A stretch of DNA of 64,000 nt from Centroberyx gerrardi (taxonomy: Eukaryota; Chordata; Actinopteri; Beryciformes; Berycidae): positions 15,971,656-16,035,655 of the forward strand of contig NC_135998.1 in assembly GCF_048128805.1 (NCBI RefSeq), written 5' to 3'. The notes below the pieces were generated by a model, which was given only the letters and a program-made list of their open reading frames with translations, was not told where the DNA came from and searched no databases. A program made the translations under genes and the position numbers. This document shows, in pieces, positions 38,665 through 52,200 of the stretch (positions within the stretch are counted from its first letter, which is position 1; every line of letters starts with the position of its first letter).

Positions 38665-39393
38665 ATAGAGAGCCTAAGTCCCTCCCCTTCCGGTGGACCA
38701 CCATGGGACCTTATTTCGGAAAAAATATGTACGGTAGTCAACGGCGAGAGACAAATAATTGTTTGATCCCGTTTGAATTGTGCCATGAATTACACATATG
38801 ATGTTTTGTCAATTTAAATGATAATTTTGCAAGTCAAGAAAGTCGCAGTTTGTCGTAAAACTGTTGAACTATAAGACTGTAAAAATACGTAATTAGAAAG
38901 ACTACACACCCAAAAGTCGCGCAAGTGACGTAACTTCCTCTCTCCACAAGCTACCCAGAGCCGCTGAAGCTAAGTCCCTCTCAGATAGCAGGAGTATTAT
39001 ACACAACCTGGAAGGTAGACAGTAAGAATGGATTTAAACTGGTTTAGGATAGTTTTAGTACAGTGGGGGCTAACGTTAACGCGATGCCTGTGTGTTTCCT
39101 ATGTTTCGTTCCATGTTGGTGTTGGTGACGTATATTGTGCGAGACGAGAGATGTAGTTCACTGAGCGGTTTCACACAAAACTAAACGTTACTGTACTGTT
39201 TTACAACAAACTGCGACTTTCTTGACTTGCAAAATTATCTTTTAAATTGACAAAACATCATATGTGTAAGTCATGGCACAATTCAAACGGGATCAAACAA
39301 ATATTTGTCTCTCGCCGTTGACTACCGTACATATTTTTTCCGAAATAAGGTCCCATGGGGGACAGCGGAAGGGGAGGGACTTAGGCTCTCTAT
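38665..39393. mobile_element. MITE-like element with about 200-bp terminal inverted repeats
   Basis: The left end runs ATAGAGAGCCTAAGTCCCTC..., through CCATGGGACCTTATTTCGGA and TTTGATCCCGTTTGAATTGT to AGAAAGTCGCAGTTTGT. The same blocks return in reverse order and complement from 39195 to 39393, ending GGACTTAGGCTCTCTAT. Arms are about 200 bases and highly similar; the middle (about 330 bases) has no ORF of note. Long arms and no coding capacity suggest a non-autonomous foldback or Mutator-like DNA transposon. The target-site duplication is unclear. Confidence 0.85.
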
Positions 39394-45599: not shown

Positions 45600-47235
45600 T
45601 TAAAACTTGTTTCCTTGTGGTTGCAGTAGTTGGAGCTTTGGTAAATATGTCAGACCTGTTTGTCTTCATTGAAGCCTGACTATTTCACAACTGCTGCAAC
45701 CTGTTCCTCTAGAAGAAAAGAAAAGAAAATTCATAGGGTGGCTGTTTAATTTCCAAATGGTGGTTGTAGTAGTAGTAGTGAGAACGGTCTGAGCAGACAC
45801 TTAACTAATTCATAGTATTCCCATGATGTCACATGCATTTCCTACCAATATGGCGCTTTACAATACACACAGCTCATTGGTTGTGGCTGTCATTTGATTG
45901 TAATCACCTGCTATTTTCCTACCAAGATGGCCGTGTGCTGATTGAACAGAGTACTATGAATAGTATGGATTTGGACCTAACAATCAGTGTGCCAGGCTGG
46001 GACATTTCTGGGGATACCCCCCACCCCTAATGCCTCATATAATACACAATTGTAACTCAATACTCATTGCCACCTTACTCCAAATGGATGAATCTCATCC
46101 TACCTAGTTTGGCTTTCTCACCTCAGCTGCAATGCCTCTAGCCTAGCCACCTCCACTTATTTAGTCATTTGCAAGACATGACCTCTTTCTGTAATGTTAA
46201 ACACAAGTTGATGAGGTTAATTTCCAGTGCCAAAAAAAGTAGTGAAAACATTTACAAGTGTTATCCAAGGGTGTCTGTACACCTTGAGACAAGTTAGTCA
46301 AAGTTACAGATGTAGTCCTGTCTTCACTGATGCGCATCATCCTTGCTGTTTTGTAAGTCAAATGCAGTTCTTTCACAGTAGCAGCAAGGGTCACAGCTTA
46401 GACAAAATGGATTCTGCGTAGGTTTCATGGCCCTTTCAGAGAATCACAAGGGTGGACTTCTAGAGAAATCTATTAGTATCGGTTCACCTGCTTCCTGGCA
46501 TATCTGTTCAGCTACATAGGTTACACTCATTGAGGATGTCGATATTTATTGATAGCCTTCTATAAAACAACTGCAGTAACAAGTTGTTATGTGAAAGTCC
46601 CACATAAGTTTAGATGATGAGGATTAAGTCTTCCCTTAGTTTTTTTACAGTCAGTGTTTCAGTTCTGGCCCTGAAACACTGACTGGCATCTCGGGTGCCA
46701 GATGGTCGTGGTTATTAAACTGAAGTGGTTCAAGCGCTCAGGAAATGATGAGGGAGAGGTGCACCCCAAATGGATGAACTGGGTACCAGGACTAACTAAA
46801 CATCCTCGCTGGTCGTTGGAAGATGTGACGGAGCGAGCAAAAGGATACATGTGTGGTAAGCCGAGCGTGCTGTTCACGATATAGGTCACCGGCAGTAAAT
46901 GAAATGAGGGACTGCCCCTGGCACGGCGCAAAACCATGCGCTGATATAGCAAATGGCGACAGTCTAGCTCGAGTTCTGGGTTGGCGGGTACGCATGCGCG
47001 ACTGTCTAACTATTGCCGTAAATATTACAGTTTCTCTGGGTGCGATGCACCCACCTAAACCTATCACCTATTTCAGAAAAGAAGTTAATGGTTTAGGAAC
47101 AAGAAGGAAAACAATAAGTGCGGATTTTGGGTTTCTGTTGTACGTCTACAACAAGTGCCCAATTGCAACCCATTCATATCATGGAGCCGTGACCAGGTCA
47201 CTGAGCACAATTTTGACACCGCGGTCAAGCTAGCC
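45600..47235. other. Repeat-rich spacer
   Basis: No gene recognised. It contains two direct YY1-like blocks near 45838 and 45915, a perfect hairpin at 46648-46685 and an unassigned open frame at 46702-46884 with no domain. Confidence 0.4.
46648..46685. repeat. Perfect 15-bp hairpin
   Basis: CAGTCAGTGTTTCAG (46648-46662) and CTGAAACACTGACTG (46671-46685) are exact reverse complements with an 8-base loop TTCTGGCC. Confidence 0.85.
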
Positions 47236-50200
47236 GCCCCTAAATTTGGAGTGCACGCGTATTCTCACCTTTATGGCAAATGCATTGAAACGGCCCAGAG
47301 CGAGCTGACAGGGAGAGTTAGCGACTTTATTCTGTCAGGTTTCTCACTTGCCAAAGACAAGTGTTGCAGTATGAAACTCTTACCTGAAGTGAGGCTATGA
47401 CATGTTTATTCTACCCGAGCACACCAAATACAATTTATCAAATTGCGTCGCACTTGGCGCAAGGATACACATGTGACTACGTTCGGTTTTCAAAATAAGG
47501 TGTTAACACAGGGTATATACAAAAAACATATATGGAAATTAGATTAATTGGATTATATTCACAGGAAGCATAAAGCATGTTATCAGTGTCCCTTGTAAAT
47601 TAAAACATCCCACTAAATTGTGAGGGGCATTACTTTATTCTTTGATTTTGGGTTGCAAGAAAAAATAATCCTGACAATGACTGATTTGAGTTCAGGACAA
47701 CCCTGCCTGCATACTAACTCAAAATCAAGCATTTTTACTGTATCATTTTAGAGAATTTCAAAGTTAAAGTCCCACATTTGTACCTTCAAATGGCTTCCTT
47801 TCTAAAACTTGGGGTGCTGTAAAAACACATTGCTCCTAAGTTCTGACAAAGACTGATATATTTGAGATCAGGACAACTCTGACTACACACCAACTCAAAA
47901 TCAAGCATTTTTACTGTATCAATTTAGAGAATTTCAAAGTTAAAGTCTCACATTTGTATGTTGAAATGACTTTATGTCTGAAACTTGGGGTGCTGTGAAC
48001 ACACATTGCTCCATAATTTCTGACAATGACTGATATATTTGTGTTCAGGATAACCCTGACTATACACTAACCCAAAATCAAGCATTTTCACTGTATCATT
48101 TTAGAGAATTTACAAATTAAAAGTCCCACATTTGTACATTGAAATGGCTTCCTTTCTGAAACTGAGGTGCTGTAAAACCAAATTGCGCCATAAGTTCTGA
48201 CAGTGGCTGATATATTTGTGTTCAGGATAACCCTGACTACACACTAACCCAAAATCAAGCATTTTTATCATTTTAGAGAATTTCAAAGTTAAAGTCCCAC
48301 ATTTGTACATTGAAATGGCTTCCTTTCTGAAACTTGAGGTGGTGTAAAAACACATTGCTCCATAAGTTCTGACAATGACTGATATATTTGAGTTCAGGAA
48401 AGCAAAAGAAAACCAAAATAAATAAATAAATAAATAACCAAAACAAAAAATAATAATAAAAAGAATACATACTCCAAATCAAGCATTTTTACTCTAACCC
48501 TAACCATTAGATCAAACTGTGAAATGCTACTGTCTGCCATTGTCTGTCTTAATATAAAAAAAAGTAAAGTGTATCAAAGCCATCAGACACAGAGAGAGCT
48601 GGACCACCTGCGGGGAAAAACACGTTTAGATTGCTAGCCTTAACAAATGGAGCAATGTGTTTTTAAAGCACCCCAAGTTTCAGACTTAAAGCCATTTCAA
48701 CGTACAAATGTGGGACTTTAACTTTGAAATTCTCTAAAATGATACAGTAAAAATGCTTGATTTTGGGTAAGTGTGTAGTCAGAGTTGTCCTGAATACAAC
48801 CATATCAGTCATTGTCAGAACTTATGGAGCAATGTGCTTTTACAGCACCCCAAGTTTCAGACATTAAGTCATTTCAATGTAAAAATGTGAGACTTTGAAA
48901 TTCTCTAAAATGATACAGTAAAAATGCTTGATTTTGGGTTAGTGTATAGTCAGGGTTATCCTGAACTCAAATATATCAGTCATTGTCAGAACTAATGGAG
49001 CAATGTGTTTTTACAGCACCTCCAGTTTCAGAAAGGAAGCCATTTCAATGTACAAATGTGTGACTTTAACTTTGAAATTCTCTAAAATGATACAGTAAAA
49101 ATGCTTGATTTTGGGTTAGTGTGTAGTCAGGGTTATCCTGAACACAAATATATCAGCCACTGTCAGAACTTATGGAGCAATTTGGTTTTACAGCACCTCA
49201 GTTTCAGAAAGGAAGCCATTTCAAGGTACAAATGTGGGACTTTTAATTTGTAAATTCTCTAAAATGATACAGTGAAAATGCTTGATTTTGGGTTAGTGTA
49301 TAGTCAGGGTTATCCTGAACACAAATATATCAGTCATTGTCAGAAATTATGGAGCAATGTGTGTTCACAGCACAGACATAAAGTCATTTCAATGTACAAA
49401 TGTGAGACAAAAGTTGAGATGAAACGGCATTTCGAGAGTATCTAACTTCCGTATCGTGACGTATTTCCGAGTGAAACAGGAAAGACAGGCGGGACATAAC
49501 GTTGGGAGGAATTTGATTTGAACGTTGAAAAGTGGGTGTGTCATAACACCCGAAGACACACCGAAGTACCGTGCTGTTGCTAGCTAGCTAACTAATGAAT
49601 CTTAGCCTCTTAGCTCTGTGTGCTAAAAGTTGAAGATTGATTGATGGGTGGATGTCATGATATTATTGGTTGAAATTAGTTACGGGCATGCTTACGTAAG
49701 CACACGGCATATTTTGTTTTACAGGAAGAAAACATGATTGAATTTTGATATAAGAATACAATGAAATTGATTTTTGGTATTTTTTTTGGCATATATTGTT
49801 AAATAGGTGCACAGTATGACCGGGGATGTGATCTAAAAGGGTTAAAAAGGCATTTTTCATTTCATCTCGTCTTTAACTTTGAAATTCTCTAAATTGATAC
49901 AGTAAAAATGCTTGATTTTGAGTTGGTGTGTAGTCAGAGTTGTCCTGATCTCAAATATATCAGTCTTTGTCAGAACTTAGGAGCAATGTGTTTTTACAGC
50001 ACCCCAAGTTTTAGAAAGGAAGCCATTTGAAGGTACAAATGTGGGACTTTAACTTTGAAATTCTCTAAAATGATACAGTAAAAATGCTTGATTTTGAGTT
50101 AGTATGCAGGCAGGGTTGTCCTGAACTCAAATCAGTCATTGTCAGGATTATTTTTTCTTGCAACCCAAAATCAAAGAATAAAAAAATTGTATAAAATAAA

Positions 50201-50405
50201 TTGTATTTGGTGTGCTCGGGTAGAATAAAGATGTCATAGCCTCACTTCAGGTAAGAGTTTCATACTGCAACACTTGTCTTTGGCAAGTGAGAAATCTGAC
50301 AGAATAAAGTCGCTAACTCTCCCTGTCAGCTCGCTCTGGGCCGTTTCAATGCATTTGCCATAAAGGTGAGAATACGCGTGCACTCCAAATTTAGGGACGG
50401 CTGGT
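47236..50405. mobile_element. Large foldback structure: inverted 176-bp satellite with inverted ends
   Basis: The ends are inverted copies of about 165 bp: 47236-47400 (starting CCTAAATTTGGAGTGCACGC, ending ACCTGAAGTGAGGCTATGAC) and its complement at about 50235-50397. Between them are tandem units of about 176 bp. Forward units have their ATCAAGCATTTTTACTG anchor near 47721, 47896, 48073 and 48251, with a partial unit near 48475. Reverse-complement units have the anchor near 48753, 48923, 49101, 49277, 49907 and 50083. A spacer at about 48490-48640 separates the arms. The right arm is interrupted at 49409-49871 by another element. No transposase was recognised. Confidence 0.85.
49409..49871. 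mobile_element. Insertion of about 463 bp in the satellite array
   Basis: The anchor spacing jumps from 176 to 630 bases here, and the satellite sequence breaks at TGTGAGAC|... and resumes at |TTTAACTTTG. The insert has weak inverted ends (GAGATGAAACGGCATTT against AAATGAAATGAGATG-type complement) and no recognisable ORF, as for a MITE. Confidence 0.7.
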
Positions 50406-52200
50406 TTGACCACGGAGTTGCGAGTGACAGCTAGTTTGACCGCAGTAATTTTGACGCGACTTGATTCAGTGCGATTACACAAATGGGATTTACTGCAAAT
50501 CATTTGCACGACGTTGCGGCTGATGCTGATGTTCTTTCTGTTCAGGCTCTGTGATTTAACTGAACATAATGCCGACAGGTTATTTCTTGAACGATCTAAG
50601 CATTGATCACGTTAACACCAGAGAACACTTTCCCTCCTACACTATTCATCTCAATGTAAGACTTGTCAAACCAGATTTTCTTCCTCTGACTTTCTATGAT
50701 TTGCGTATTAGCAGCCTGGCGGGCGGTCTGGCGAGATAAAGCTTTAGTATCAAGCTACAAATTATTACAAAGAACTTATTAAAGTGAATAATTCTGAATT
50801 CCTTCTTCACCATTTTGGCCAATAATTTAGGAAAGTATAAAGTTTGAAAATCTCTGAAAAGATGCACAAGGCACATGGACTGCAAAATATATTGTTTAAT
50901 ACACAGTAAATTAATTATACCAGTTGACAATTTCAGAAGACACTGAAAAAAATAAAAAATATATTTATTTCCATTGGCTCATTTTCATCTGTCTATTTCT
51001 GTCTGTTATAATCAGATAAGGCCCATTTACAGACTATGTATTGCATTTCATAAATATGTACTAGCGTAGTTTATTTGTACAATGAATTTGTTCCTTTTTA
51101 ACACTGTGTACACAGTAAATCTCTTGACAGCAAACACATCACAAACAGCAATACACAGACATGTATCAGAAGGTAATATGGAGACACATGTTAGCACTGA
51201 TATCAAAACACTGGAATTTAAGCCACAGTGAACCAAACTTAATGGATGTATGCTGGCTATTTTGCAACTGTGAATGGTCCCATCTAAAGAATGAAAACTG
51301 TGATGGATCTAATGGATCTAGTGGCCCTTCCTAGTCTATGGAACCCTGCTGTCTATTGTTGAGGACTTTGAGAAGAAGATCAGATTCTGTAAGTGGCTGA
51401 AACTATGACAAAGCCTGAGCAGCATTGTAGTATATAGTACTGTACCCATGTAAGAGGAATACTTAAGGAGGTCTGGTGCATCCTGATCTCCTGAAATTTT
51501 ATGGAATGAGCATGTCTTAAAATGCAAATATGTGCTCTGTGCACAAAAAAATTTCAAACCATCAAAGGATTATGTGATAGAGGCATAATTAGAAACAGGT
51601 AGTAGTCTGACATTGCAATAGCGCAGTGGAAAGTGAGGGTGTGGAGGTCAGGGTGGTGGCATAAACATTTCCCTTCAACTCTGACACGGCAGGTTCGATT
51701 CCCAACTCATAGCAAGAAGATTTCTACTTTGAGTGAAGTTTTTCTTATTTAACGATGACCAAAGCCTTTCCCTAACCTTAACCAAATTGTTTTTGTTGCC
51801 TAAACCTACACTCTTAAAAGTAACACAAGTGTGTGTAGTCCCAAAGAAGACACACAGATATGTTAAAAATTACACATCCTTTCTAAGAGTGTAACTCTAA
51901 CCTTAACCCTAACCTTAAATTTGGTTGGTTTAGTTGTGCAACCTTAACAATAACCTTAACCAAAGTTGTTTTACTTGCCTAAAGTTAACCATTAGCTAAC
52001 CTTTTCAAGTGATGAACAGGGGAAATGCTGTCTCCAATTTGTGCGATTGTCGCATAATCCAATTTGTGGTGTAGGAACGCAATCTTCACATAATTCGTGT
52101 CCACAACGCATAGTCTGCATTTCAGACTTAATAGTCAGTTTCAATTCAGTTTGACGTTTCTCTGGCTGGCATACAAGCAAGCTCTGTGAGGACCTGGAGG
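50406..52200. other. Spacer with SINE-like and CTAACCTTAACC-type repeats
   Basis: No gene recognised. At 51600-51720 a B-box-like GCAGGTTCGATTCCC suggests a tRNA-derived repeat. Degenerate CCTAACCTTAACC strings follow at about 51770-51990 and resemble a common fish repeat tail. Confidence 0.45.

Follow-up and report, generated by a model that had tools for sequence, protein, structure and literature searches.

A probable foldback-type DNA transposon with tandem arrays in its arms in the genome of Centroberyx gerrardi

A stretch of 64,000 nucleotides of Centroberyx gerrardi, here called the window, contains two arrays of one repeat unit that run head-to-head. The locus raises the question of whether this structure is a satellite, an inverted duplication or a mobile element, and, if it is mobile, what moves it. 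To answer this question, we evaluated the ends of the structure, the likeness of its two arms and its other copies in the genome, and compared it with known systems.

Extent and layout of the element

We found a single element of 3229 bp (47218-50446), bracketed by a perfect 9-bp target-site duplication whose sequence occurs twice in the 64 kb with both strands counted (Table 1). The inverted ends are alike at 11/13 bases, and the inverted repeat extends over 223 bp at 97% identity (47216-47438 / 50196-50418), which is longer than the 165 bp or so of the original prediction. In a scan for 9-bp repeats adjoining inverted 13-mers, which covered left ends between 44010 and 48000 and right ends between 49901 and about 53000, this element was the only match with at least 8/13 bases alike. 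The end scan at K=9 recovered the window element and missed the copy at C1, which has a 2-base gap in its left end. At K=8 both elements were missed, and inner inverted matches were returned instead. For the copies in the window and at C1, a reading with an 8-bp duplication and CACTG ends was rejected: the 9-bp match is exact there, and the base that precedes the A varies among copies.

The element ends begin with ACTG or ACCG, and the end sequence compared with those of the P elements (below) is ACTGCGGTCAAGC. In the left end of the window element, about 30 bp are missing between two GGTCAA motifs; the right end retains them. The CpG observed/expected ratio was 0.76 in the left terminal domain (47218-47440), 0.05 in the left array (47681-48400) and 0.38 in the flanks.

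Table 1. Features of the element and its borders, in window coordinates
Feature	Position	Strand	Description	Evidence
Left target-site duplication	47209-47217	+	AATTTTGAC, 9 bp	flank reading, end scan
Left terminal domain	47218-47438	+	first bases ACCGCGGTCAAGC	inverted-repeat alignment
Subterminal segment	47439-47628	+	gone from the window's right arm, in both C1 arms	
Left array	47674-48399	+	four full units, then about 30 bp of a fifth	
Unit L1	47674-47844	+		
Unit L2	47845-48021	+		
Unit L3	48022-48198	+		
Unit L4	48199-48370	+		
Unit L5	to 48399	+	partial	
Central spacer	48400-48646	.	247 bp; other copies have short matches only	
Right array	48647-50142	-	six units, including the split R2	
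Unit R6	48647-48816	-		
Unit R5	48817-48987	-		
Unit R4	48988-49164	-		
Unit R3	49165-49341	-		
Unit R2, inner part	49342-49408	-		
Nested insertion	49409-49870	.	462 bp, splits R2; ends GAGATGAAA..TTTCATCTC	
Unit R2, outer part	49871-49971	-		
Unit R1	49972-50142	-		
Right terminal domain	50196-50446	-	from outside ACTGCGGTCAAAC	inverted-repeat alignment
Right target-site duplication	50447-50455	+	AATTTTGAC, 9 bp	flank reading, end scan

From each end inward, the element consists of a terminal domain, a subterminal segment, which the right arm has lost, and an array. The unit counts of the original prediction, four to five forward and six reverse, agree with the layout that we obtained, and the spacer measured clearly more than the predicted 150 bp or so. 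Counted from outside, the second right unit is the one interrupted by the nested insertion. No clear duplication was seen at the borders of this insertion, and partial weak matches to it in loci L020 and L034 suggest a dispersed repeat.

The arms are complementary in sequence, as the double-stranded RNA of the original prediction would require. The single-strand fold of the left array had a z of -2.49 against 20 shuffles and was given no weight. Neither the Rfam nor the tRNA scan gave a match in the window. Elsewhere in the window (38665-39393), two inverted repeats of 200 bp are 95.5% alike (38665-38864 / 39195-39393) and have ends AGAGAGCCTAAGTCCCTCCCC; the pair looks like another small inverted-repeat element. 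As for gene content, we noted matches to galactose-3-O-sulfotransferase, RRM and EF-hand.

Further copies in the genome

Genome searches were conducted in the 779-Mb assembly that contains the window, whose contigs are of chromosome size. The genome-wide search with the unit and the ends, proposed along with the original prediction, revealed further family copies at unlinked loci, and at least five of these belong to the subfamily of the window. The unit search gave at least 22 matches at no fewer than five loci (the window, C1, C5, and C19 at 2.11 Mb and 27.79 Mb), and every match listed was a copy of the element family. The repeats had been called a satellite; this term is not supported, since long unidirectional arrays at many sites were not found among the matches listed. 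The terminal-domain search gave 7 matches at 5 loci, namely two in the window, two at C1, and the others at both C19 loci and C79. The C5 copy has the array and the inner part, and gave no terminal-domain match.

About 1.2 kb of other sequence lies at the centre of the C1 palindrome, which has a 9-bp duplication of its own, GCTTGAGAG; the copy at C19 27.79 Mb is a small head-to-head one. One arm or less is retained at C5, C19 2.11 Mb and C79, and the C19 2.11 Mb copy has a 14-base second end with unmatched flanks (GGCGAGAGC/GACCAAACT). The other copies have 1-3 units per arm, partial units included; in the window the complete units number 4 on the left and 6 on the right.

A second set of copies was revealed by a search with the pattern ACTGCGGTCAAGCTAG. 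With one mismatch allowed, the pattern gave 16 matches versus 4 for a reversed control, and the matches included inverted pairs ending in ACTGCGGTCAAGCCAG. The terminal 206 bp of one such pair, used as a query, gave 16 matches at 9 loci. At 7 of the 9 loci the inverted ends lie about 1.1-2.5 kb apart (C3, C7, C8, C17 and three on C13; the C17 pair, C17:26340960-26343423, spans 2.5 kb), and C4 and C9 have a single end. The three copies on C13 (C13:11619167, 11679844 and 11819192) lie within about 0.2 Mb, have similar end spacing and are perhaps a segmental duplication.

Five of the nine loci of this sister subfamily were read (C3, C8, C4, C9 and C7), and the units are 157-168 bp long. The C8 copy has arms that are 89.6% alike and a perfect 8-bp duplication, CGAGATTT; its five direct units (157-168 bp) and part of a sixth are faced by one partial unit in reverse. 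The C7 copy has units in both directions and has lost its right terminus. The C3 copy has two direct units only, with a duplication, CCGAATCC/CCGAATTC, that contains one mismatch. A change in unit direction is found not only in the window but also in the copies at C1, C19 27.79 Mb, C7 and C8. Over about 85 bp, the ends of one subfamily can be aligned with those of the other, and two GGTCAA motifs are common to both. The left end in the window, the right end at C3 and the end at C9 lack the 30 bp between these motifs. Homology between the 177-bp and 168-bp units was considered and found to be unsupported; the local score of 43 was matched by 118/2000 shuffles, and the opposite strand scored 57. 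The exact end motif had 2 matches in viral contigs, taken as chance.

Five of the copies read have both ends, and duplications were found at four of them: 9 bp in the window, 9 bp at C1, 8 bp at C8, and 8 bp with one mismatch at C3. The fifth, C19 2.11 Mb, has no matching duplication. Long inverted arms together with a target-site duplication, tandem units in variable number within the arms, and copies at unlinked loci are the structural features of foldback elements, and all of them were found here.

Likeness of the two arms and nature of the element

The near-palindrome of head-to-head arrays is real, because 312 consecutive bases are identical between the arms, far above chance. The units were compared in mirrored pairs counted from the ends, and L1/R1, L2/R2, L3/R3 and L4/R4 were 100, 98.8, 98.9 and 97.7% identical. 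Outside its own pair, none of these eight units had a match above 97.1% (L1 and R1 versus the first C1 unit), and the others reached at most 95.4%. The mirrored pairing of units 1-4 was the top one of 24 possible pairings. Arrays amplified separately would not yield such mirror likeness, which argues that the array of one arm in the window copy was copied from the other.

The differences between the arms, 13 counted substitutions in addition to private indels (190 bp and 462 bp) and smaller gaps, are unequally distributed, with 5/215, 0/312 and 8/444 aligned bases in successive segments (Fisher p 0.013). The difference-free 312-bp piece lies exactly between the 190-bp loss and the 462-bp insertion of the right arm. 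This inequality, from one post-hoc Fisher test, is a hint of conversion between the arms; the piece may be a conversion tract that was halted by heterology at the right-arm indels.

Among the head-to-head copies of the first subfamily, mirror-copied arrays are found in the window copy only. The right unit of C1 is 89% like its left units and closer to R4 of the window (93.5%), and the facing units of C19 27.79 Mb are 89% alike. In both copies the facing units are less like each other than like some window units. Differences in the terminal domains were 6/209 between window left and right, 6/244 between window right and C1 right, 5/242 between C1 left and right, and 4/243 between C1 right and C19 2.11 Mb, and the tree of terminal domains did not group the arms of the same element. 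Since these arms are no closer within an element than between copies, arm copying holds for the window array alone. Homogenisation of the arms as a trait of the family, which we had considered, was withdrawn, as the units of C1 and C19 27.79 Mb and the terminal-domain tree do not bear it out.

Taken together, this element is very probably a single insertion of a non-autonomous foldback-type DNA transposon. The ends, the duplications and the unlinked copies show that the structure is mobile as a whole, and they support the original prediction of a composite foldback element whose arms contain repeats. That prediction had also offered an inverted duplication. This part stands insofar as the window arrays are near-identical in mirrored order, and fails insofar as the locus is a member of a mobile family and not a one-off event. 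A single inverted duplication of an immobile, satellite-bearing locus would explain the mirrored, near-identical arrays of the window copy, a likeness that C1 and C19 27.79 Mb do not show, but target-site duplications on four copies and the same ends with similar architecture at unlinked loci make it very improbable. An assembly artefact by a false inverted join, which the difficulty of assembling palindromes might suggest, is probably to be discarded and is the least credible explanation of all, given that the arms differ by their indels, gaps and substitutions, that a duplication brackets the element, and that other palindromic copies exist, with C1 having its own duplication.

Across the 11 copies read, we identified 127 stop-to-stop frames of at least 40 aa, the longest of 122 aa. 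No match to Pfam families was obtained for the 10/127 frames scanned (ten among the longest). Since no transposase was recognised in the scanned frames, a cut-and-paste transposase encoded elsewhere would bind the ends and act in trans. The GGTCAA motifs, one or two at each end and about 30 bp apart, are candidates for its binding. Insertion would proceed through an 8-9-bp staggered cut, and the arrays might lengthen or shorten via slippage or unequal exchange. In the window copy, the array of one arm could have been carried to the other by gene conversion or by an inverted duplication made while a break was repaired.

Superfamily and comparison with known systems

Which superfamily supplies the transposase? 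From the length of the duplications and the anatomy of the arms, a Mutator-like/Foldback origin is the most likely answer, and we propose it tentatively. Duplications of 9, 9, 8 and 8 bp modestly favour Mutator-like elements; as 8-9-bp duplications are common to other superfamilies, they are a weak criterion. In PMC6446971 (in excerpt), Phantom duplications are given as 8-10 bp and those of Rehavkus as 9 bp, the evidence for Mutator in chordates is described as limited, and vertebrate reports are doubted. We found 4 MULE domain matches in the genome, 2 of them with an adjacent FLYWCH domain. These two loci, L047 (C16:1407123 region) and L050 (C9:32894756 region), are 72% alike at the DNA level; they merit attention, since the existence of Mutator elements in vertebrates is contested. 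No ends of the element were present in the 5378 and 3153 bp read at them, and no transposase-bearing copy with the element's ends was found among the copies and the MULE and P loci examined.

Less probable is that a hAT, Merlin or other superfamily with 8-9-bp duplications moves the element. hAT elements make duplications of 8 bp. Those of Merlin are likewise 8-9 bp, but Merlin ends begin with GG (both from the excerpted text of PMC8101967), whereas those of the element begin with AC.

That the element is a P-superfamily foldback, equivalent in vertebrates to Galileo and mobilised by a THAP9-like transposase, is unlikely, and this first guess was weakened by the different ends of the genome's own P elements. 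The genome has 18 P-type transposase domain matches, in elements with 8-bp duplications, and 2/4 duplications of the element family are 8 bp. The ends of zebrafish Pdre2, CATACCTGTCAAC, have GTCAA in common with the element (PMC10983969, in excerpt), and Galileo is a precedent for tandem repeats within P-type arms. However, a strict scan gave ends for 4/14 P loci, CATAGAGATATAA, CAGAGCCATATAG (2 loci) and CAAGGAAACTATA, none of which is like the end of the element. With at most 4 mismatches, the 17-base end had one match in the 14 loci, unpaired and at 14/17 bases, and the window and C1 duplications are 9 bp. The first 12 bases of the end, with at most 2 mismatches, gave 11 matches in 7/14 P loci; 2/14 contain N runs. 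An end match near a P locus, L037, was taken as chance, having neither a partner nor a duplication. P-type transposase domains lie in 931-aa open frames at L021/L033 (C23:1013192) and L023 (C23:1064479), 51 kb apart, and other P loci also have long frames.

If the Mutator-like assignment is extended to a vertebrate foldback lineage whose transposase is of the Mutator type (possibly FLYWCH/Phantom-like), with two subfamilies that have the same ends and independently gained arm arrays of similar unit length (157-177 bp), and with one arm occasionally copied to the other, the complete proposal is doubtful and quite unlikely to hold in every part. If true, it would argue for selection on arm arrays, in vertebrates and flies alike, for instance as platforms for pairing or for transposase binding. 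As vertebrate Mutator reports are doubted (PMC6446971, in excerpt), a fish foldback of the Mutator type would be noteworthy, provided that its link to the transposase were demonstrated. The family is low in copy number, with two subfamilies, intact duplications and countable unit pairs, and it allows the building and homogenising of arms to be studied.

The original prediction held that simple foldback transposons carry no tandem arrays in their arms. This premise has to be given up, because Tetris, the Galileo F group and Tm1 all have such arrays, and the layout has been described in flies and nematodes; the plan itself is not new. Tetris of Drosophila virilis has, like our element, long inverted arms, an outer flanking domain and tandem units (PMC4079207, in excerpt). 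Its units are about 220 bp long and variable in number, its middle is non-coding and its duplications are 8-10 bp, and an autonomous copy was not found (PMC4079207). The likeness is one by description. Tetris units also build kb-size satellite arrays, unseen for our element (PMC4079207, in excerpt). The Galileo F group of Drosophila mojavensis, of the P superfamily, likewise has tandem repeats of about 210 bp in long arms, unit numbers that are unequal between arms, and chimeric copies with unmatched flanks, as in our family (PMC3573991 and PMC3688188, in excerpt). It differs in its 7-bp duplications and known P transposase (same excerpts), compared with 8-9 bp and no recognised transposase here, and the ends of our element are unlike those found for the P elements of this genome.

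Tm1, a Mutator/Foldback element of root-knot nematodes, shares composite arms with tandem repeats and duplications of mostly 9 bp (8-10), and differs in its units of about 14 bp and in that some copies encode a putative transposase (PMC3169594, in excerpt). Drosophila FB4 is similar in that its duplications are 9-10 bp and its arms are about 700 bp long (PMC8277862, in excerpt). In flies, foldbacks with arm arrays have been connected with inversions and with the origin of satellites (PMC4079207 and PMC3573991, in excerpt). No vertebrate foldback with arm arrays was found in titles and abstract openings, mainly outside the subscription literature. Compared by description with these known systems, what may be new is the host group, together with the occurrence of two subfamilies whose units look unrelated.
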